Positions 27,919 through 37,683 of a stretch of 64,000 bases of DNA are shown here, piece after piece. Source of the stretch: Marinoscillum sp. MHG1-6 (GTDB taxonomy: Bacteria > Bacteroidota > Bacteroidia > Cytophagales > Cyclobacteriaceae); NCBI RefSeq assembly GCF_024714475.1, contig NZ_JAMZMI010000001.1:744001-808000 (forward strand), read 5' to 3'. Both the position numbers and the translations under genes were made by a program. Within the stretch, counting starts at the first letter, position 1. Each line of letters opens with the position of its first letter. The notes beneath the pieces were generated by a model. It did no database searches and was not told the DNA's origin. It was given only the letters and a program-made list of their open reading frames with translations.

Positions 27919-28179
27919 CTAGTCGTAGTGATATTTGCAGGCATAGATCAGGATTTCCTCACCTGATACCCGATAAACCAGACGATGTTCACGGTCTATT
28001 CGTCGTGACCAAAAGCCCGATAATTCATATTTCAATGGTTCGGGTTTGCCTTTACCTTCAAATGGACTGTGAGAAATGTCCTTGATCAGTTCGTTGATCT
28101 TTTTCAATATCTTTCGATCTTCCGAAAGCCATGAGGTATAATCCTCCCAGGCATTTTTTGAGAAAATAACCTTCATCAA
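27919..28179 (-). CDS. yoeB: YoeB/Txe-family toxin, ribosome-dependent mRNA endonuclease
   Basis: An 86-residue basic protein with the full YoeB layout. It starts MMKVIFSKNAWEDYTSWLSE, then has a helical ILKKINELIKDI segment, GKGKPEPLKYELSGFWSRRI, and the C-terminal catalytic strand region DREHRLVYRV to CKYHYD. The Glu of KYELSG, the Arg residues of EHRLVYRV and the terminal His-Tyr match the RNase active site of the family. When free, YoeB binds the 30S ribosome and cuts mRNA in the A site. The start overlaps the antitoxin stop by four bases, the normal antitoxin-first order. Convergent to the GNAT-like gene. Confidence 0.93.
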   Translation of the reverse strand: MMKVIFSKNAWEDYTSWLSEDRKILKKINELIKDISHSPFEGKGKPEPLKYELSGFWSRRIDREHRLVYRVSGEEILIYACKYHYD

Positions 28180-28430
28180 TCCTCGATCAACCCATTTTCA
28201 ACAGTGTTGCCGTCTTTCATTTGTCTGATGGATTCGAACAGGTGATCTGCATTCTTTTTGGAGCCGAGCAAGTGAACGGTCTCCATGAGGGAGTTGTATT
28301 CGTCAAGAGAGATCATAACGGTACCATTCCCGGACCCTCTTTTGACGATGAGCGTTTCCTGATTTTGCTCGACATCATCCAGGTATTTTTTGAGATTGGT
28401 TCGGAACTCGGTAAAATTGGCTGCTATCAT
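28176..28430 (-). CDS. yefM: YefM/Phd-family antitoxin
   Basis: An 84-residue antitoxin. The N-terminal Phd/YefM DNA-binding domain is recognisable from IAANFTEFRTNLKKYLDDVE, then TLIVKRGSGNGTVMISLDEY, which contains the usual strand before the dimer interface. The acidic C-terminal tail (MKDGNTVENGLIED) wraps the toxin in this family. YefM neutralises YoeB and, alone or in complex, represses its own promoter. A perfect TAnnTTTG box lies only 18 bases upstream, set between two direct repeats that are good operator candidates (28441-28460). Confidence 0.9.
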   Translation of the reverse strand: MIAANFTEFRTNLKKYLDDVEQNQETLIVKRGSGNGTVMISLDEYNSLMETVHLLGSKKNADHLFESIRQMKDGNTVENGLIED

Positions 28431-28506: not shown

Positions 28507-28520
28507 TTTATGAAGCGGGA
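28507..28520 (+). repeat. Right 14-bp direct repeat flanking the toxin-antitoxin pair
   Basis: Exact copy of TTTATGAAGCGGGA at 27891-27904. It overlaps the stop codon and last codons of the acetoacetyl-CoA synthetase gene on the minus strand. Confidence 0.7.
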
Positions 28521-30448
28521 GTCTGAATAAATTCTTCCAATGTTTCCGGGTTGGCCAGGGCCTCTTTATTAGTGATAGCCTCTCCATGAATAAGTCTTGT
28601 AACTGCCAACTCCACTTTTTTACCGCTGATGGTTCTTGGGATCTCTGAAACCTGGTGAATTTCTGCGGGCACATGTCTTGGGGTCCTTTTTTCCCGTAAG
28701 GTTGATTTGATTTTTTGTTCTAAGTCAGGAGACAGTTTGTAGCCTTCATTGAGCACCACAAACAGCACTATGATAGTATCATCACCAACCCTTTTTCCAA
28801 TGACGATGGAATCCTTGATTTGGGGCAGCGACTCTACCGGTTCATAAATTTCGGCAGTGCCAATACGTATTCCACCAGCGTTCAACGTGGCATCAGAACG
28901 CCCATATACGATGCAGCCTCCTTCTGGAGTAATTTTCACATAGTCTCCATGGCGCCATACACCGGGATATTGATCAAAGTAGGCCTTTCGATATTTTTCA
29001 CCCTGAGGGTCATTCCAGAATTGGATGGGCCTTGAGGGAAAAGGAGCCGAACAAACCAACTCACCCACTTCATCGGTTATTGGCTGGCCCTCATCATTAT
29101 AAGTTTCGACTTTCATTCCCAAACCACGGCACTGTAACTCATTCTTAAATACCGGTCCAATAGGGTTTCCTAGCATAAAACATGAAATGATGTCTGTGCC
29201 TCCGGATATGGAAGCAAGTTGAACATCCGGTTTGATGTCCTGATAAACAAAGTCAAAATGATGATCTGTGAGAGGTGATCCAGTGGAGAGGATGGTCTTC
29301 AGACTGGAAAGGTCAAAATCTTTTTGAGGAACCAATCCGGACGACTCACAGGCCGACAGGAATTTCGGAGAAGTGCCAAAAATGTTGACCTTCTCTTTCT
29401 CAATGGCTCTAAATAGCACACCTAAATCGGGGTAGGAAGGACTTCCATCAAAAAGGTAAATGGTGGCTCCGATGTACAGAGAAGACACCAGCCAGTTCCA
29501 CATCATCCACCCACAAGTGGTGTAATAAGTAATGATGTCTTCCGGTTTCAGGTCTGTGTGCAGGCTGAGTTCCTTGAAATGCTGCAGCAGGGATCCTCCC
29601 GCTCCATGGACAATGCATTTAGGCTTTCCGGTAGTACCCGAAGAGTACATGATGTAGAGCGGGTGATCAAAAGGAAGTTGCTCGAACCTTAATTCATCCG
29701 GTTGTTCGGAGATAAAATCTTCCCATCGGGTCATTTTTTTTGAGGGGTCCATAGGATAATCCCCGAGTGGCTCAATGACCACGATTTTTTCAAGGCTGGA
29801 TATTGACTTGCCCAGCTTTATCAGCGTGTCATTCAAGTGGATTGGCTTGCCGTTGTACTGATATCCATTGATTGCAATGAGCACTTTTGGTTCGATTTGA
29901 CCAAATCGGTCGAGAACGCCTTCAAAACCAAAGTCAGGGGAACACGAAGACCAGATTGCCCCAATAGAAGAGGTGGCCAGCATGCCAATAATTGCCTCGG
30001 GTCGGTTGGTAATAAATGCGGCTATGCGATCACCTTTTTTGATTCCCAGTTTTCTTAGCGCATGTGCAAGACCTGCGACCCTATGCTGTAATTCCTGGTA
30101 GGTAAAAGTGGATCTGCCACCATCTTCATTTTGATATGTGATCGCTATTTTCTCGCCTTTATGTCTCAACAGGTTTTCTGCGAAATTGAGCCTGGTTCCC
30201 TCAAACCATCGTGCAGTAGGGATGTCTGATCCAACCAATACTTTTCCGTAGCTAGATGAGTGAATAACCCCTGCATATTGCCATATGCTTTGCCAAAAGC
30301 TTGAAAGGTCATTAACCGACCAATTATACAGAGAAGAGTATTCGTTGAAATCCAGGTAAAACTTCTCCTTTAGAAACCGCATGTAAGCGGTCAGATTGGA
30401 CTGCTCGATACGCTTTTTTGAGGGGCTCCAAAGGGGTGTTTTTTTCAT
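28508..30448 (-). CDS. aacS: Acetoacetyl-CoA synthetase
   Basis: A 646-residue acyl-adenylate-forming enzyme. The N-terminus (PLWSPSKKRIEQSNLTAYM) and the SSSYGKVLVGSDIPTARWFE region are typical of AacS and set it apart from acetyl-CoA synthetase. The AMP-binding P-loop is YIMYSSGTTGKPKCIVHG. Downstream motifs are TILSTGSPL, GGTDIISCF, WRHGDYV and GRSDATLNAGGIRIGTAEIY. It activates acetoacetate to acetoacetyl-CoA with ATP. As the last gene of the phenylalanine/tyrosine breakdown operon it would capture the acetoacetate released by fumarylacetoacetase. It starts four bases after the flavin reductase gene. One copy of a 14-bp repeat overlaps its 3' end. Confidence 0.92.
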   Translation of the reverse strand: MKKTPLWSPSKKRIEQSNLTAYMRFLKEKFYLDFNEYSSLYNWSVNDLSSFWQSIWQYAGVIHSSSYGKVLVGSDIPTARWFEGTRLNFAENLLRHKGEKIAITYQNEDGGRSTFTYQELQHRVAGLAHALRKLGIKKGDRIAAFITNRPEAIIGMLATSSIGAIWSSCSPDFGFEGVLDRFGQIEPKVLIAINGYQYNGKPIHLNDTLIKLGKSISSLEKIVVIEPLGDYPMDPSKKMTRWEDFISEQPDELRFEQLPFDHPLYIMYSSGTTGKPKCIVHGAGGSLLQHFKELSLHTDLKPEDIITYYTTCGWMMWNWLVSSLYIGATIYLFDGSPSYPDLGVLFRAIEKEKVNIFGTSPKFLSACESSGLVPQKDFDLSSLKTILSTGSPLTDHHFDFVYQDIKPDVQLASISGGTDIISCFMLGNPIGPVFKNELQCRGLGMKVETYNDEGQPITDEVGELVCSAPFPSRPIQFWNDPQGEKYRKAYFDQYPGVWRHGDYVKITPEGGCIVYGRSDATLNAGGIRIGTAEIYEPVESLPQIKDSIVIGKRVGDDTIIVLFVVLNEGYKLSPDLEQKIKSTLREKRTPRHVPAEIHQVSEIPRTISGKKVELAVTRLIHGEAITNKEALANPETLEEFIQTPAS

Positions 30449-30452
30449 TATG

Positions 30453-31397
30453 TTAGCGTGAGTTCAACAAGGGAATGCTCATCAAAGCATGTATCGCAAA
30501 ATGCAGGTCCCCATTTTCAAGTGCCAGTTTGGCTGCATGTTCGATTTTCTCCTCCCGATTTTCTCTGGATTGAGTGACCACATAGATGTAATCACTGATA
30601 TATTCCTGATTGGGTTCCATCGTTGTGGCATTATTAAAAAATGCTTCTATCTCATCATTTGTGGGGAGCTTTGCCAGACCGCCCAATCTTCCCAGGTTAT
30701 TGCCTGTTAGAATCTTTGAATTTCTAATATGCTCCGGGAGCAAATCAATTCCTACCCCTAGTCCATTGGGTTTCGCAAGTTCGAACATGGCGTTTCCGAT
30801 GGCCCGGGTGTAATAGCTCCCCCCATTGCGACCAACCAGATCGATTCGATCAGGTGGGATGGTTCCATTTTGATAAATGGCCTCTCTCACATGAATAAGT
30901 ACTACTTTGCAGATAACCAGATTGCCAGACCCTTTGTCGCCACCCAATGAAATGATTCGATCCGCCTTACATTCCATTTGAAATGGTGATTGCCAGACTC
31001 TTTTTGGTGCTACCATTTCAGAATCAATAGGAGTTAGTCCACTTTTCTCGAACTCGTTGATATCACTCGGATAAAGTGTTGAAGCAAGGTTGATTTGTTC
31101 AACGATGGAATAAGGGACGGCCTGAACCACACATTCCGGCACCTCCTTGAGATTATTGAGGGTGTCCTTTACTGATCCATCTTTTCCGCTATTTGCTGGA
31201 GAAAATGCCACATAAGGTGGATTAGCTCCAAACGCATTAAAAAAGGAGAATGGCGACAAGTTGGGGATGCCATCTTTTGAGACAGTGGAAACCAGTGCTA
31301 TGGGACGTGGTGCCACTCCACTAAGCAGGAGTTGATGAACTGTTTTTGTGTCAGCTTGATCGGGGTTGATGGTCAGGTATGGGGATCTTTCAGGCAT
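30453..31397 (-). CDS. Flavin reductase-like (FMN-binding split barrel) protein
   Basis: A 314-residue protein whose first 200 residues match the flavin-reductase-like FMN-binding domain: LLSGVAPRPIALVSTVSKDG, LSPFSFFNAFGANPPYVAFS and DTLNNLKEVPECVV. The C-terminal 100 residues (from about NAMFELAKPNGLGVGIDLLP) are an extension ending in helices. Proteins of this type bind FMN and often serve oxygenases or carry out small redox steps. It lies inside the phenylalanine/tyrosine catabolic operon, between the FAA hydrolase and AacS genes with gaps of 10 and 4 bases. No step in the known pathway calls for it. It has no signal peptide, so it is cytoplasmic. Confidence 0.82.
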   Translation of the reverse strand: MPERSPYLTINPDQADTKTVHQLLLSGVAPRPIALVSTVSKDGIPNLSPFSFFNAFGANPPYVAFSPANSGKDGSVKDTLNNLKEVPECVVQAVPYSIVEQINLASTLYPSDINEFEKSGLTPIDSEMVAPKRVWQSPFQMECKADRIISLGGDKGSGNLVICKVVLIHVREAIYQNGTIPPDRIDLVGRNGGSYYTRAIGNAMFELAKPNGLGVGIDLLPEHIRNSKILTGNNLGRLGGLAKLPTNDEIEAFFNNATTMEPNQEYISDYIYVVTQSRENREEKIEHAAKLALENGDLHFAIHALMSIPLLNSR

Positions 31398-31407
31398 CGA
31401 GGAAAGT

Positions 31408-32421
31408 TTATGTTGTCTTTTTCTTTTCTAATATCGAATAGTTCTTTTTGGACTTTCTGATACGATTGGTCAAACTACCCAATCCCTCAATCTTCAACTC
31501 GATTTCATCCCCCTGTTCCAGCCAGATAGGCTCGAACGGTTCACCACTTTCTTTGGCTTGTAATGCCCATGTTCCGTTCAATTCCAGGTAACATCCGGTA
31601 CCCACAGTACCGGAGCCTATGACATCTCCGGGAAAAATCTCTGTTCCATAAGAACATCTTTCAATGATCTCGGCAAAAGTCCAGTTCATGTCCTTCATGT
31701 TACCTAAAGATACGGGTTGTCGGTTATGAAAAGCCTCCATTTTGAGATTATAACTGTTCCCAAATGCGGTCTCCACCTTAAGATCCACCAGTTCATCGGG
31801 GGTCACCAGCCAGGGACCAATAGTAGTCGCAAAGTCTTTTCCCTTGGCCGGGCCCAGGTTCAATTTCATTTCCTCCATTTGCAATCTACGGGCAGACAGA
31901 TCATTCATGATGGTAAATCCGGCAATGTATTCGTCTGCTTTGGAAGAGGGGATGTTCTTGCCTCGTTTTCCTATCACGACGGCCACTTCAAGCTCAAAGT
32001 CCAGTTTAAACAGGTGATCATTTTCCACAGTTATGTCTCCAGGGCCGTAGATGGCGTTGTGATTTGTGAAGTAGAAGATCGGAAATTGATCAAATTCGGG
32101 GATCATATCCACCCCTCGATTTCTTCGTGCCGTGGCCACATGCTGCCTGAAGGCATAGGCATCACGACATGAAGTAGGATTGGGAACGGGCGCCAACAGG
32201 TGTGGATCCGGTATGGATGTCCCGATCTTTCCCTTGACAATGGCCGCCTCCACTTTTTTGGCGATATCCATACCTGATTCCTCCATCATAAGCAGTTCCA
32301 GCATCGTTGCAGGAAGTTCCAACCCGATTTGTGCTGCATGATGCATCAGGTCATAAACTTGCCCATTGATCAATAGGCCGCTTCTGTGTTTATTTTCGAT
32401 TTGGTAGGATACGAATTTCAC
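31408..32421 (-). CDS. fahA: Fumarylacetoacetate hydrolase family protein
   Basis: A 337-residue FAH-fold hydrolase. The metal-binding and catalytic signatures are visible: DAYAFRQHVATARRNRGVDM, PIFYFTNHNAIYGPGD, LDFELEVAVVIGKRGKNIP (acidic metal ligands), GFTIMNDLSARRLQMEEM and GPAKGKDFATTIGPWLVTPD. It splits fumarylacetoacetate to fumarate and acetoacetate, the last step of tyrosine breakdown, which its position after the homogentisate dioxygenase and aminotransferase genes supports. The FAH fold also serves other acylpyruvate hydrolases, so the substrate relies on context. Its start overlaps the end of the upstream aminotransferase frame by four bases. Confidence 0.88.
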   Translation of the reverse strand: MKFVSYQIENKHRSGLLINGQVYDLMHHAAQIGLELPATMLELLMMEESGMDIAKKVEAAIVKGKIGTSIPDPHLLAPVPNPTSCRDAYAFRQHVATARRNRGVDMIPEFDQFPIFYFTNHNAIYGPGDITVENDHLFKLDFELEVAVVIGKRGKNIPSSKADEYIAGFTIMNDLSARRLQMEEMKLNLGPAKGKDFATTIGPWLVTPDELVDLKVETAFGNSYNLKMEAFHNRQPVSLGNMKDMNWTFAEIIERCSYGTEIFPGDVIGSGTVGTGCYLELNGTWALQAKESGEPFEPIWLEQGDEIELKIEGLGSLTNRIRKSKKNYSILEKKKTT

Positions 32422-33539
32422 GCTACTGGATGTTTGAGCTTGTCAATTAATTTCTGATATTCTTTGGTAATGACCTCAACAGCGAACTCTGTTTCTTCTA
32501 TTGTGCCGGAGTTGATACGAATACCCTGCGGAATGCCGAAAGTATCTACATGCCTTACAATCAACCCTCTGTTGAGACAACCTGAAGCAAATTCCTCGGC
32601 AAACTTCTCCGTTGGCATCAGCATGAGAATAAAATTGGTATGAGAGCGTACATATTCAATTCCCAGATCATCGAAACACTTGTAAAGGATGTTAAGTGAT
32701 TGCTTGTTGAGCTCGATGGTCTGTTTCAAAAAAGCCTCATCATCTAAAGCAGCAATCGCTGCTGCCTGGGCAAGGTTATTGGGTTCGAAAGGTAATTTAA
32801 CCTTATACAAAGCCTCAATCACGTGATCCGGCCCAACAGCAAATCCGACCCTCAAACCAGCGAGTCCATATACTTTGGAAAAAGTGCGGGTGACGACCAT
32901 GTTTGGATAGTCATAGGCCACTCCATTGGGATAACTCTCATTTTCTGAAGCATAAGCCGTGTAAGCCTCGTCAAGCACCACCATGATATGATTCGGGACC
33001 TGATCCATAAATGATTCAAAGGTTTTGCGATCGATCATCGTTCCCGTTGGGTTGTTTGGGTTTGCGATGTAGATCATCATGGTTTTTTCATTGATCGCTT
33101 TAAGGATACCATCGAGGTTGAAACCATGGTTATTCATTGGCACCTGAATAAGCTTTCGTCCCATTTTACGGATAGAAACGTACATGCCGATGAAGGTTCC
33201 TTCCGAAGTGATGATCTCGTCGTCTTCCGTGGTAAAAGCGCTGACGATATAAGCCAGTAAGGAATCAGTCCCATGGCCACAGATAATATGATTTGGTTGT
33301 ATACCATATTTTTTTGCTATGGCCTGAACCAAATTATAGGAGGACGGATCTGTATACCTGTGAAGACCGGTAAGTGATGAATTGATTGCCTTCATGGCCA
33401 TTGGACTTGGACCTAGAGGGTTTTCAGCGGAAGCTAATTTTACTATTCGGGTGAGGTTTTTTTCTCGAGCCAGCTGCTCAATGGATAGGCCGGCCTTGTA
33501 GGGCTTTAATTGTTGTATAAATGGAGGTATTTTGATCAT
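32418..33539 (-). CDS. HisC-like aminotransferase, probable tyrosine transaminase
   Basis: A 373-residue fold-type I PLP enzyme of the histidinol-phosphate/aromatic aminotransferase group. Motifs are KLASAENPLGPSPMAMKAIN, GHGTDSLLAYIVSAFTTEDD, IYIANPNNPTGTMID, VVLDEAYTAYA and the PLP-lysine segment TRTFSKVYGLAGLRVGFAVG. HisC-type enzymes often take aromatic amino acids. Here the gene lies between homogentisate dioxygenase and fumarylacetoacetase with four-base overlaps on each side, and no histidine genes are near. It most likely turns tyrosine into 4-hydroxyphenylpyruvate, filling the step between the hydroxylase and HPPD. That assignment rests on context; no gene symbol is given because hisC would mislead. 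Confidence 0.83.
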   Translation of the reverse strand: MIKIPPFIQQLKPYKAGLSIEQLAREKNLTRIVKLASAENPLGPSPMAMKAINSSLTGLHRYTDPSSYNLVQAIAKKYGIQPNHIICGHGTDSLLAYIVSAFTTEDDEIITSEGTFIGMYVSIRKMGRKLIQVPMNNHGFNLDGILKAINEKTMMIYIANPNNPTGTMIDRKTFESFMDQVPNHIMVVLDEAYTAYASENESYPNGVAYDYPNMVVTRTFSKVYGLAGLRVGFAVGPDHVIEALYKVKLPFEPNNLAQAAAIAALDDEAFLKQTIELNKQSLNILYKCFDDLGIEYVRSHTNFILMLMPTEKFAEEFASGCLNRGLIVRHVDTFGIPQGIRINSGTIEETEFAVEVITKEYQKLIDKLKHPVA

Positions 33540-34690
33540 AGCCAGGATTTCGCGTAATCTTTATCAATCGTTTTTTTCACTGCCAATGTTGGCTGTAGTG
33601 CCTCATAGGTGTCGATCATGACAGCATACTCCTCTGTTTTCCTTGCCCCAATGGAAGCCTCCGTTTTTCCCGGTTGGGGTCCGTGAGGCATGCCACCCGG
33701 ATGCAGCGTGATCGACCCTTCCTCCACACCTTTTCTTGACATAAAGTCGCCTTCGACGTAGTATAACACCTCATCGCTGTCAATGTTTGAATGAAAATAG
33801 GGTGCGGGCACAGCGGATTCATGAAAATCAAAAAGGCGCGGCACGAAATTGCAAACCACGAATGATCTGGTTTTATAAAGCAGATGAACCGGAGGAGGCA
33901 GGTGAATGCGGCCTACTTTGGGGTGATAATCCTTGATATTGAAGGTAAATGGGTAAAGGAATCCATCCCATCCTATCGCACCGAAGGGATGATGCGGTAC
34001 GATGTGTTCAAAGAACCGATCCTTCATCTTCACTACGATTCGAAAGTCTCCTGTACCTGTTTTGGGTTCTGTATATTCAGGAGGACGAAAATCACGCTCG
34101 CTATAAGGCGCATGTTCGGTCATTTGACCATATTCATTCTTATAATGATTGGGAATTTCAAATGCGGTGTCTGACTCGATAATTAACAATTTATTGTTTT
34201 TGAAATCATCGAATTTCAATTGATAGGTGGTAGCTCGAGGTACCACAATCTGGTCTCCTGGCCCAAAGGTATTTTTACCATATTGACTATAAAAGGCGCC
34301 TGTGCCATGATGTATAAACAAGTACTCGGCTCCACCACCATTTCGGTAAAAGTCATTGGTGTCTTCGGTGACCCTGGCACAAGAGATTTTACACGTATGA
34401 TTTTTCAGGAAAGTCTCACGGGCCGTAATGAAGTTGCCTTTTTTCTCGCTCTTATCGGTATAACAGTGATAATATAGCGCAGGAGCTTCTGGCCAGTCGT
34501 CCTCACGATGTCCGAGTTCCTTCACGGATTTTACCGCAGTCGGGAGAAAATGGTGATAGATCGTAGAATAAATTCCCGAAAAGCCTTTACTGGATACGAG
34601 CTCCTCACGATAGAGCGTCTTCCCATCCGGCTGATAGAAGGTCGTATGTTTTACCCTTGGAATCTCACCTACTTTATGATAAAATGGCAT
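33536..34690 (-). CDS. hmgA: Homogentisate 1,2-dioxygenase
   Basis: A 384-residue cupin-type iron dioxygenase that opens the ring of homogentisate to maleylacetoacetate. The sequence starts MPFYHKVGEIPRVKHTTF and has the family features NDFYRNGGGAEYLFIHHGTG, VVKMKDRFFEHIVPHHPFGA and GWDGFLYPFTFNI. The C-terminal active-site region is PAPYFHSNIDSDEVLYYVEG and then LHPGGMPHGPQPG, with His and Glu residues expected to bind iron. The length fits the shorter bacterial form. It lies directly after HPPD (17 bases), and its stop overlaps the aminotransferase start. Confidence 0.93.
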   Translation of the reverse strand: MPFYHKVGEIPRVKHTTFYQPDGKTLYREELVSSKGFSGIYSTIYHHFLPTAVKSVKELGHREDDWPEAPALYYHCYTDKSEKKGNFITARETFLKNHTCKISCARVTEDTNDFYRNGGGAEYLFIHHGTGAFYSQYGKNTFGPGDQIVVPRATTYQLKFDDFKNNKLLIIESDTAFEIPNHYKNEYGQMTEHAPYSERDFRPPEYTEPKTGTGDFRIVVKMKDRFFEHIVPHHPFGAIGWDGFLYPFTFNIKDYHPKVGRIHLPPPVHLLYKTRSFVVCNFVPRLFDFHESAVPAPYFHSNIDSDEVLYYVEGDFMSRKGVEEGSITLHPGGMPHGPQPGKTEASIGARKTEEYAVMIDTYEALQPTLAVKKTIDKDYAKSWL

Positions 34691-34707
34691 AGTCTCTCAG
34701 TTTGGGT

Positions 34708-35844
34708 TTAACATGGTGGCATCACTGCCTCCGGTTCTTTGTCCAGATTGCCCCGTAGTTTTTGGTCGAGTTCTATCGATTCAAATAGCGCCTGGAAGTT
34801 TCCTTTTCCAAAACCTTCGGCACCCTCTCGTTGTATAAATTCGAAGAAAAATGTAGGACGATCACCGATTGGTTTGGTGAAGAGTTGGAGCAAATATCCT
34901 GTAGACTCTTTATCACATAGTATTTTCAGCCGTTGCAGATCGCCAATATCCTCGGCTATCTGGATGTCTTCCCGTTCTCGGAGCATATCATAATAGGTGT
35001 CCGGCACATCCAGAAACTCTAATCCGTTTTTACGAAGTGCTTCCACGGTTTTGACAATATCGGTGGTTTGCAGAGCGATGTGCTGGACTCCGGAACCATG
35101 ATATTGCTCAATGTATTCCTCAATCTGTGACTTTTTTTCAGCCGCATAAGGTTCATTGATCGGGTTTTTAATCACCGAATCAGAAGAGCGAACAACCTTA
35201 GATAAAAGGGCCGAGTATTTCGTGCCGATGTCTCCTGGCTTGAAATCCACAAACGTCTCAAAGCTCATGGCTTTGTTAAAGTAGTCTGCCCACAGGTTCA
35301 TCTCATTTTCACGAACATTGCCCACGATATGATCAATTCCGATAATGCCGGTTTCTTCAGCTTCTATGTTGATATGTTGCCGAGGTTCACAATAACCAGG
35401 CATGAAGATGTAGTTGTAATGATCCCGATTGACGTAAACCAATTCTGTATCATCATAAAGTCTGATGGCAGCCTCCGTGACATAGCCATGCTTGTCTTCA
35501 ATGGCTTCAGGTTTTCTTACCATTACCGCGCCATGCTGTGTGGCGTATTTGAATGCGGCCTCCACGTTGTCCACCTCAACTGCCCACCGCTTAACCCCAT
35601 CGCCATGTGTATTGATGAAGCTGAGCACCTCAAAGCAGGAGGGTTGAACGGCCGAGGTGATGACAATTTTTAAATTGTTATTTTGAAGGTAGTAGGAGAC
35701 CCGATCACGTGTCCCTGTTTCCGGGCCAATGTAGCCTGTGATCTTCATGCCCATGGCTTTGGCATACCAATAGGCAGTCATTTTGGCTGACCCAACATAG
35801 AACTCAACAAAATCATAGCCTCTGATACCAAGTACATTTGACAT
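34708..35844 (-). CDS. hppD: 4-hydroxyphenylpyruvate dioxygenase
   Basis: A 378-residue two-domain vicinal-oxygen-chelate dioxygenase that converts 4-hydroxyphenylpyruvate to homogentisate. The N-terminal domain (RGYDFVEFYVGSAKMTAYWY) is followed by GIDHIVGNVRENEMNLWADY, which supplies the first iron His. The catalytic domain has GSGVQHIALQTTDIVKTVEA with the second His, and the C-terminal LLQLFTKPIGDRPTFFFEFI and QREGAEGFGKGNFQALFESI with the iron Glu and the gating helix. It lies 27 bases after the phenylalanine hydroxylase gene and ahead of hmgA, matching the reaction order. Confidence 0.94.
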   Translation of the reverse strand: MSNVLGIRGYDFVEFYVGSAKMTAYWYAKAMGMKITGYIGPETGTRDRVSYYLQNNNLKIVITSAVQPSCFEVLSFINTHGDGVKRWAVEVDNVEAAFKYATQHGAVMVRKPEAIEDKHGYVTEAAIRLYDDTELVYVNRDHYNYIFMPGYCEPRQHINIEAEETGIIGIDHIVGNVRENEMNLWADYFNKAMSFETFVDFKPGDIGTKYSALLSKVVRSSDSVIKNPINEPYAAEKKSQIEEYIEQYHGSGVQHIALQTTDIVKTVEALRKNGLEFLDVPDTYYDMLREREDIQIAEDIGDLQRLKILCDKESTGYLLQLFTKPIGDRPTFFFEFIQREGAEGFGKGNFQALFESIELDQKLRGNLDKEPEAVMPPC

Positions 35845-35871
35845 AATTCTTCATTTTAGGGTTAACGATGT

Positions 35872-37632
35872 TCATTTTTCTTGTAGCTGGGTTGGATGTA
35901 TAATGGCAACACCACTCTCAATGAGGTGTTTCTTTTGGGGTAATTTCTTTTTCAATTGATCTAAATAGGTTTCTACTTCCTCACGGAACATGAGGTCATT
36001 TTCACTGGCTTCCAAAAGCTCCAGAGGCAGCAACCAATCCTTGGGATGATCTTTTTTCAGCTTGTTAAGCACCTCATCCAGGTGGATGGATTTATGGTGC
36101 CCTTCCCGATAGTCACGCACCTGCTGATACAAGTGCTCTAATTCAATAGTTTTGTGTGACTTAGCGGCATGGATGGTCGTCTCTTCAGGTACATGGGCAT
36201 CCATTTCAAAGCTGTTGAGATCTGCAGGACCATTGAAAGCGGAGACTACTTTTTTACCAACAGCCATGTGAAAGACGCCCTGATCCGGGTGGAAAAGAAC
36301 TTCATCCTGATATTTCACTGTGCAGTTTCTAAAGCTGATAAGCATGATTTTTCCCTGCAGGTTTCGCATGCCCGTGATTACCTCACCGGACAAAGAAATT
36401 CCTCCTTCAAATTCCAGGTGCGCAGTATGCCCTTCATAAATATCATAGACCTTCAGGTCACGAGGACTCATATCTTCAATGGCCAGGTTGATCCCTTTGA
36501 GTTTGCCCATCGGCGAACAAAACCCGGCTTTATATTTATCCGGACTATGACCAATCAATTCTTTTTCACGATAAGCGAGCGATGTAGGTCCTGCGGTAGA
36601 AAAATAAATGGGCTTGCCCTCATGCTCAATAGTGCGCGTAAAGACACCTGAAATTTGCAATCCTGTACTCAGCTCTATAGAACCTAAGGAAGCCGAACCG
36701 ATCAGCTTTTCGATACCCTCAACACCTCCGGTTCGGATCACCAGGGTATTGGTAAATTCTTCGAGAACTTGACTTAAATGCGCAAAATCAGGAGTAACAA
36801 AGAGCTGGGGTTGTGGCTTGGTGATATCATAATCCTGATAGGCCGCTTCAATGGTCAAGGGCATTTTTTTCACCTTGTCAGTGAGGCACCAGGTACTCTC
36901 ACCGATGGAGGAGAGCAATCCGGCACCGTAAATCCTTGGATTTTCCAGGGTACCAATAAGGCCATATTCCACAGTCCACCAGTGCAATCTTCTAAGAAGG
37001 GTCATTTCGCTGGGTTCACCCATATTGGCAGACAAGTACGCTATTTTCTCTTCTGCCTGCTTAATCTCTTTTTTGGTAGTGCCAGTAGCTTCTTTGATAA
37101 TTGAAAGATGTCTAATGGCTTCATAGAGCTCGTAATCTTTTTTGTTAGAAATGGCCTTGGCCCCGATCTCACCAAAATGTCTTAAAAACTCGCTGTAGTC
37201 AGGATTGGCGATGATAGGTGCATGCCCGGCGGATTCATGAATGATATCAGGTGCAGGAGTATATTCTATATGTTCCATCTGTCTGATATCAGAGGCAATA
37301 ACCAGGACGTTGTAGGCCTGAAAGTCCATAAATGCTGCCGGTGGGATAAATCCATCTACCGCTATAGCCGCCCAGCCTATTTTTTTTAAGATGCGGTTCA
37401 TCCCATACATATTGGGGATGCGTTCCGTGGAGATTCCGGCAGCTTTTAATCCGTTTAGATAGGATTCATGAGCAACATCCTTGAGGTAATTCACATTTTT
37501 GCGCATGACGTAGCGCCAAACAGCCTGGTCGATGGCTGAATACTGGTCATAGTCCTGAGGTTTAATGAACTGTCGCAAGTGTGCGGGCAGTTTGTCTATA
37601 ACCGGGTTACCTATGTAAGACTTTGCAGTCAT
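35872..37632 (-). CDS. phhA: Aromatic amino acid (phenylalanine) hydroxylase, large form
   Basis: A 586-residue pterin-dependent hydroxylase, first gene of the operon. The catalytic domain covers about residues 20-330. It includes YSAIDQAVWRYVMRKN, the iron-binding DIIHESAGHAPIIANPDYSE (two His, about 136-141), RLHWWTVEYGLIG with the Glu ligand, and GAGLLSSIGE. A further 250 residues extend the protein beyond the usual 260-300 of proteobacterial PhhA. They are mostly beta strands (HLEFEGGISLSGEVITGMRN) then helices, and their role is unknown. The enzyme makes tyrosine from phenylalanine using tetrahydropterin and oxygen. No carbinolamine dehydratase gene is nearby. A clear promoter lies upstream. 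Confidence 0.9.
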   Translation of the reverse strand: MTAKSYIGNPVIDKLPAHLRQFIKPQDYDQYSAIDQAVWRYVMRKNVNYLKDVAHESYLNGLKAAGISTERIPNMYGMNRILKKIGWAAIAVDGFIPPAAFMDFQAYNVLVIASDIRQMEHIEYTPAPDIIHESAGHAPIIANPDYSEFLRHFGEIGAKAISNKKDYELYEAIRHLSIIKEATGTTKKEIKQAEEKIAYLSANMGEPSEMTLLRRLHWWTVEYGLIGTLENPRIYGAGLLSSIGESTWCLTDKVKKMPLTIEAAYQDYDITKPQPQLFVTPDFAHLSQVLEEFTNTLVIRTGGVEGIEKLIGSASLGSIELSTGLQISGVFTRTIEHEGKPIYFSTAGPTSLAYREKELIGHSPDKYKAGFCSPMGKLKGINLAIEDMSPRDLKVYDIYEGHTAHLEFEGGISLSGEVITGMRNLQGKIMLISFRNCTVKYQDEVLFHPDQGVFHMAVGKKVVSAFNGPADLNSFEMDAHVPEETTIHAAKSHKTIELEHLYQQVRDYREGHHKSIHLDEVLNKLKKDHPKDWLLPLELLEASENDLMFREEVETYLDQLKKKLPQKKHLIESGVAIIHPTQLQEK

Positions 37633-37652: not shown

Positions 37653-37683
37653 CAAATTTACCGAAAATGGCCTATTAAGCCAA
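37653..37683 (-). promoter_or_regulatory. Promoter of the phenylalanine/tyrosine operon: TTG-N20-TAAATTTG
   Basis: On the minus strand TTG (37681-37683) precedes TAAATTTG (37653-37660) by 20 bases, both in good agreement with the Bacteroidota consensus. The transcript would start near 37648, about 16 bases before the hydroxylase ATG. No other promoter was seen within the seven-gene run, so this probably drives all of it. Confidence 0.7.

Follow-up and report, generated by a model that had tools for sequence, protein, structure and literature searches.

In the 64,000 nt stretch of the Marinoscillum sp. MHG1-6 genome analysed here (the window; positions 744,001 to 808,000 of contig NZ_JAMZMI010000001.1), seven genes on the minus strand (28508-37632) make up a phenylalanine and tyrosine breakdown operon in the order phhA-hppD-hmgA-hisC-like-fah-FLAV-aacS. 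The encoded route runs from phenylalanine through tyrosine, 4-hydroxyphenylpyruvate, homogentisate, maleylacetoacetate and (fumarylacetoacetate) to fumarate and acetoacetate, and on to acetoacetyl-CoA. In textbook accounts of tyrosine breakdown, the maleylacetoacetate isomerase reaction is the step that depends on glutathione; no isomerase gene is present inside the operon. Gene content, co-occurrence, linkage and a partial exclusion between two protein families lead us to infer, with a probability of about one half, that the flavin-reductase-like protein here called FLAV (30453-31397, minus strand, 314 aa) acts on maleylacetoacetate before FAH, the hydrolase of the operon, either as an isomerase or as a reductase. 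That FLAV would specifically be a glutathione-independent isomerase is a more tentative proposal from genomic context.

The original prediction had described a seven-gene operon without a maleylacetoacetate isomerase, and this description is borne out: all seven genes are matched by profiles, none of them is an isomerase, and HPPD, HmgA and FAH genes, by which we recognize a homogentisate pathway, stand together at the locus. It had also suggested that the isomerase might lie elsewhere, and named a clear isomerase gene at another position in the genome, co-regulated with the operon, as the result that would refute the prediction. The assembly (4.1 Mb, 25 contigs, rated 100% complete) contains none of the kinds searched for. 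There is no match at E<=1 to TIGR01262 (the zeta-GST maleylacetoacetate isomerase) or to GST_N_3, for both of which control genomes were positive, nor to MDMPI_N (PF11716, the mycothiol-type maleylpyruvate isomerase), which was found in 6 of 14 control genomes; the c5 family described below is also without a match. These searches, which did not include DinB_2 proteins, rule out a GST-type or MDMPI-type isomerase elsewhere in the genome. The lack is a trait of the phylum and not of this operon, since TIGR01262 has no match at 1e-5 in any of 296 sampled Bacteroidota genomes (the present one included), 166 of which carry FAH of one type or the other.

The survey of these 296 genomes used thresholds of E<=1e-15 for FLAV, 1e-30 for HmgA and for classical FAH, 1e-40 for the FAH type found in the window and 1e-10 for c5. 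FLAV matches occur in 143 genomes, 108 of them with a C-terminally extended form like that of the window and 35 with short forms only; G034 was classed as short, its open frame being 211-214 aa long and its aligned span running through stops. Every one of the 108 extended-FLAV genomes has FAH (Fisher, 3e-38), and every one has HmgA, 92 by the window query and 16 by PF04209; the latter 16 had seemed HmgA-negative and carry a classical HmgA, which rules out extended FLAV without the homogentisate pathway. In 42 of the 108 genomes, representing nine families, FLAV follows FAH on the same strand at a distance of at most 2.5 kb (below 200 bp in 32 of the 42), and it is never upstream within that range. 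The linked FAH is classical in 23 cases and of the window type in 19, and because FLAV adjoins either of two FAH types the link outlasts the exchange of FAH.

A second protein family of about 330 residues, here called c5, was first spotted by frame clustering as recurrent beside FAH in FLAV-less genomes (15 of 20 loci). It is found in 27 of the 29 FAH-positive genomes without any FLAV match; the exceptions are G154 and G136, the latter a fragmented draft with congeners that do encode extended FLAV. In all, c5 is present in 43 of the 296 genomes, always together with classical FAH. In 35 of them FAH follows c5 on the same strand by no more than 4.5 kb (under 400 bp in 30), and seven of the eight c5 genomes without a nearby FAH also have extended FLAV. 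The 166 FAH-positive genomes divide into 101 with extended FLAV only, 36 with c5 only, seven with both and 22 with neither (p 1e-14); the counts for both, FLAV only, c5 only and neither are 4, 63, 17 and 10 by genus (p 1e-8) and 1, 20, 11 and 5 by family (p 5e-5). Extended FLAV and c5 are in large part mutually exclusive. Better evidence than these phylum-wide tests, since the latter keep deep phylogeny, comes from within family f23, where FLAV adjoins FAH and c5 is located apart in all seven genomes with both proteins, FAH lies at most 4.5 kb downstream of c5 in all 12 genomes with c5 only, and two genomes have FLAV only. We note that one f23 genus (g70, five genomes, L131-L135) has neither c5 nor extended FLAV, yet its FAH surroundings are like those of the c5 genomes.

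The association of c5 with FAH extends well beyond the phylum. A collection of 85k species holds at least 579 c5 relatives, and of the best 80 loci, which were examined, 58, from many phyla, have FAH as the next gene downstream at a distance of no more than 300 bp, the other 22 including contig-end cuts, larger gaps and missed frame calls. Within the fetched stretches of these 80 loci HmgA is found in 19, HPPD in 18 and FLAV in none. The titles of the c5 records include Bacteroidetes, Chloroflexi, Planctomycetota, Verrucomicrobia, Acidobacteria, Paenibacillus, Alteribacillus, Neobacillus, Moorena, Euryarchaeota and Heimdallarchaeota, among others. A plasmid search returned nine records, with the order hppD-c5-fahA-hisC-hmgA on a Priestia plasmid (where c5 is annotated 'hypothetical protein') and c5-fahA on a Streptomyces plasmid; in Kovacikia c5-FAH stands beside HPPD and HmgA. 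The hypothetical gene preceding fahA on plasmids of Tsukamurella, Streptomyces, Pseudonocardia and Rhodococcus (L267-L270) is a remote c5 (104-133 bits, a range that also covers the Streptomyces plasmid just mentioned), and all four actinomycete FAH loci opened have the order hmgA-c5-fahA, with hmgA annotated only as a cupin in Rhodococcus. For Rhodococcus globerulus HmgA and HmgB proteins have been reported, and c5 is not mentioned in the consulted portion of that report (PMC11889516). An annotated maiA lies beside or near fahA in four of five Pseudomonadota plasmid FAH loci opened (Acinetobacter, Sulfitobacter, Rhizobium and Paracoccus; not Variovorax), so that where maiA is present it holds a position similar to that of FLAV or c5. 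The neighbours of fahA on the Pseudomonadota plasmids carry other annotations and gave no c5 match, but the c5 plasmid search also missed most of the remote actinomycete members. TIGR01262 is over its cut-off in none of 50 c5 genomes searched, and weaker GST matches occur in three.

c5 has no significant sequence match in Pfam, NCBIfam or PDB, and hhalign finds no relation of c5 to FLAV and no sequence relation to E. coli DeoC. An AlphaFold2 model built from 53 sequences (pLDDT 95.1, pTM 0.92) is predicted to be a deoxyribose-phosphate-aldolase (DERA)-like barrel. The first 45 of the 50 structures in the VIA list are DERAs, DERA-derived designs or entries titled only as aldolase or structural genomics (Z 14.1-16.9 over 202-238 residues, rmsd 2.9-3.9, identity 9-17%), with the next family at Z 12.9; families missing from this list are not taken as excluded, and Foldseek alone places other barrels first. 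Invariant residues include two lysines, K191 and K223 (numbering of the Alteribacillus protein), in predicted strands 6 and 7, and a GxCS motif in the final strand; their placement may correspond to that of the catalytic lysines K167 and K201 on strands 6 and 7 of E. coli DERA and of its GASS loop. The predicted fold is common to c5 and DERA and the placement of the lysines may be, whereas the low sequence identity and the location beside FAH set c5 apart. The model carries no sign of a redox cofactor.

FLAV itself matches PF01613 (60.2 bits, cut-off 27) over residues 30-173, and its N-terminal two thirds align with solved FMN-type proteins of that family, namely nitrilotriacetate monooxygenase component B (3bpk, which aligns with residues 7-210), 2-nitrobenzoate nitroreductase (4z85), an FMN-binding protein (1eje) and flavoredoxin (2d5m). 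In contrast to these relatives, FLAV has a conserved C-terminal part of about 100 residues outside the match and is linked to FAH and not to a monooxygenase. This extension (30453-30773, minus strand; residues from about 209) carries the conserved sequence GIGxDxLPxxIRxSxxLTGNNL...P in an alignment of 22 extended FLAVs, in which G216, P221, S227, P245 and A301 are invariant, D218, L230, L235 and L238 are kept in at least 90% of the sequences, and the distal helical portion is less conserved than the proximal one. The extension had been called unusual in the original prediction; it is indeed present, but as a conserved family trait shared by 108 of the 296 genomes, and the alignment rules it out as an oddity of this genome. 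All 47 extended FLAVs fall into a single clade (support 0.998) in a midpoint-rooted tree of 87 family members. Cys143 and Glu142 are also conserved but provide no specific mark of FLAV, because the two nearest solved relatives have Glu-Cys at the same place. A single-sequence structure model of FLAV is poor (pLDDT 36), and a search of viral contigs gave one distant, uninformative match. The genome encodes a second extended FLAV (contig C18, L051 8724-9698, plus strand), which is divergent from a cluster that includes a short-chain dehydrogenase gene and a further gene of the FAA-hydrolase family.

In the mechanism that we propose, FLAV, encoded directly after FAH, would replace the glutathione-dependent isomerase at the maleylacetoacetate step. 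It is predicted to bind FMN in its split-barrel domain, with the conserved C-terminal domain taking part, and would convert maleylacetoacetate to a form that FAH can hydrolyse; this would most likely be the trans isomer, reached by flavin- or cysteine-assisted cis-trans isomerization, and less likely succinylacetoacetate, in which the C=C bond is reduced. In lineages without extended FLAV the same job would be done by c5, encoded just before FAH, for which one can envisage a thiol-free route: a Schiff-base iminium would form at the ketone that adjoins the cis double bond and yield a dienamine whose bond can turn. The alternation with c5 speaks for a redox-neutral step of FLAV, its family membership for a redox step. 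A wider generalization, which we regard as rather unlikely, is that two unrelated and previously unassigned families, extended FLAV as a flavin-dependent non-redox isomerase and c5 as a barrel isomerizing through a lysine Schiff base or the invariant cysteine, replace the glutathione-dependent isomerase across bacteria and archaea lacking it. Were it correct, extended FLAV would serve the window and 107 further sampled genomes of the phylum, and c5 would serve Bacteroidota, Bacillota, Actinomycetota, Planctomycetota, Chloroflexota, Cyanobacteriota and archaea.

Several observations weigh against a role of FLAV at this step. Extended FLAV is more than 2.5 kb from FAH or on another contig in 66 of the 108 genomes, and its exclusion with c5 tracks deep phylogeny: in the class to which the window belongs 67 of 68 FAH-positive genomes have extended FLAV and none has c5. 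The second extended FLAV of this genome, on C18, sits near another FAA-hydrolase gene, and in Nonomuraea a c5-like frame occurs without FAH in its stretch. Short FLAV adjoins HmgA in the c5-bearing genomes G022, G104, G112 and G290, which fits a redox role for the short branch, and the solved relatives of FLAV are termed flavin reductases, flavoredoxin, nitroreductase or monooxygenase component, all names of redox proteins. Finally, neither extended FLAV nor c5 is found in 22 of the 166 FAH-positive genomes. A broader c5 profile, run without a positive control, matched none of 23 genomes (these 22 and the present one), and the FAH neighbourhoods of 19 loci without extended FLAV and c5 (L131-L149) show nothing recurrent beyond within-genus synteny. 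A shorter flavin reductase is present in 20 of the 22, and FAH in 29 of the 35 genomes with short FLAV only; short FLAV as a full substitute is nonetheless a weakened candidate, its members being scattered in several clades, some of which are common to FAH-less genomes. Spontaneous isomerization, and FAH taking maleylacetoacetate directly, both also named in the original prediction, are candidates for these 22 genomes and for Bacillus thuringiensis. A contribution by the flavoprotein is the best supported of the four options that the prediction listed, given that FAH and HmgA accompany the extended form in all 108 genomes, that it comes just after FAH in 42 of these, and that it is largely exclusive with c5.

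The alternative that survives best, though we think it unlikely, is that FLAV is a redox helper that re-reduces benzoquinone acetate (oxidized homogentisate) or maintains the Fe(II) dioxygenases in the reduced state, with maleylacetoacetate isomerizing spontaneously or with a small thiol, or being hydrolysed directly by FAH. Short members of the family adjoin hmgA in four f21 or f50 genomes with c5 and in two f20 genomes without it, and, on plasmids of Priestia and Lysinibacillus, are neighbours of other ring-cleaving dioxygenases; likewise Bacillus thuringiensis, in the part of the account consulted, has hppD, fahA and hmgA only, with no isomerase identifiable (PMC6193087). However, the extended form is one clade, is FAH-linked in 42 genomes and gives way in large part to c5, and a helper of dioxygenases is not expected to alternate with an FAH-linked aldolase-like barrel. 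On plasmids, 283 records have a FLAV match, but in no case does it span 80% of the query (68% at most among the 40 listed) despite the presence of FAH on 119 plasmids, although this is a weak test as the extension diverges.

A reductase function, which forms the smaller share of our preferred reading and is distinctly improbable, would make FLAV an NAD(P)H-dependent maleylacetoacetate reductase yielding succinylacetoacetate, which FAH would split to succinate and acetoacetate with no need for isomerization. The scheme depends on the acceptance of succinylacetoacetate by FAH, which is presumed. In keeping with a reductase, FLAV comes from a redox family and has its link to FAH beside either FAH type, and a glutathione-dependent, non-enzymatic bypass through succinylacetoacetate is mentioned, as one that may exist when the isomerase is missing, in the consulted part of a review (PMC9338888). 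It is c5 that argues the other way, as it fills the same niche with a fold predicted to be a DERA-like barrel and nothing that points to a redox cofactor, and redox-neutral isomerization would be the simpler shared function. Least probable is that the isomerase is an unrecognized enzyme elsewhere in the genome and FLAV an unrelated passenger: the separation of extended FLAV from FAH in 66 genomes and the 22 FAH-positive genomes with neither candidate are set against the 108/108 association with FAH and HmgA, a downstream position kept beside two FAH types, and the absence of the searched GST and MDMPI families from this genome.

The remaining genes of the operon, all on the minus strand, account for the other steps. 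phhA (35872-37632, 586 aa) encodes an aromatic amino acid hydroxylase (NF010657, 832 bits, cut-off 346), hppD (34708-35844, 378 aa) 4-hydroxyphenylpyruvate dioxygenase (TIGR01263, 403 bits, cut-off 277) and aacS (28508-30448, 646 aa) acetoacetate--CoA ligase (TIGR01217, 874 bits, cut-off 521). The product of hmgA (33536-34690, 384 aa), homogentisate 1,2-dioxygenase, belongs to a short divergent clade that exceeds the Pfam cut-offs (PF04209, 25.8 bits, cut-off 21) and reaches just 52 bits against TIGR01015, whose cut-off is 511; it has relatives in 145 of the 296 genomes and matches the annotated HmgA of a Priestia plasmid at 47%. The FAH-family hydrolase (fah, 31408-32421, 337 aa; PF01557, 173 bits) is of a 'window type', present in 61 of the 296 genomes, and not the classical kind, scoring 79 bits against TIGR01266 (cut-off 375), a profile to which this genome has no match at 1e-30. 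A HisC-family aminotransferase (32418-33539, 373 aa; TIGR01141, 306 bits, cut-off 277) is presumed to be a tyrosine aminotransferase, its substrate being deduced. HisC-like genes are also found in homogentisate loci of Priestia (L151) and of four f12 genomes (L140-L143). With HisC-family genes recurring at homogentisate operons in lineages that are not related, tyrosine aminotransferases may be hidden among the genes annotated as histidinol-phosphate transaminase.

Transcription of the seven genes as a single unit is plausible because the intergenic gaps are at most 27 bp and two pairs of genes overlap by 4 bp; phhA is separated from the next upstream gene by 197 bp. A single promoter had been predicted, and 20 bp before the phhA start there is a possible Bacteroidota-type promoter, TTG-N20-TAAATTTG (37653-37683, minus strand), the sole N20 match in the window. 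The consensus used for the scan is one that we presume to apply, and 1.17 matches are expected by chance; the N19 form of the pattern matches elsewhere in the window only, and a sigma-70-type scan found sites no more numerous than in shuffles. Downstream of aacS by 77 bp, on the same strand, are YoeB-like toxin and Phd/YefM antitoxin genes (27919-28430) with a 4-bp overlap between them. The operon was probably acquired horizontally, judging from the relationships of FLAV, HmgA and FAH, which are closest to families f32 and f34 and not to the window's own family: the window FLAV clusters with f32 and f34 (clade of nine, support 0.954), whose relation to the window is at phylum level only, the best matches of HmgA (57-62%) and FAH (63-71%) are in the same two families, and the sampled genomes of the window's own family carry classical FAH, unlike the window. 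The order hppD-hmgA-fah-FLAV-aacS recurs in two f34 loci, one of which includes a small extra frame.

The window operon resembles the hmgABC operons of Pseudomonadota, with their zeta-GST maiA/hmgC, in combining HmgA, FAH and upstream enzymes with an extra gene beside fahA. It differs in that its genome has no GST of the kinds searched, with FLAV in place after fah; in the addition of acetoacetate-CoA ligase and PhhA; and in its short divergent HmgA and non-classical FAH. The hppD-fahA-hmgA operon of B. thuringiensis is likewise a homogentisate operon without a recognizable isomerase, for which, according to its authors, the isomerase gene is not directly identifiable; it consists of three genes only, and neither FLAV nor c5 is reported in it in the consulted part of that paper (PMC6193087). 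A Bacillus strain was reported to possess a glutathione-independent maleylacetoacetate isomerase (Crawford 1976, as cited in the consulted part of the review PMC9338888, which names no gene for it). This is the activity postulated here for the window, although maleate was formed and the activity may therefore differ; FLAV or c5 may correspond to this orphan activity. Among the titles listed in searches of the open-access literature, none assigns FLAV or c5 as an isomerase. If either protein performs the step, a gap in the annotated metabolism of several phyla would close, an activity known for decades may gain a gene, and two thiol-independent chemistries of cis-trans isomerization would become accessible to study.

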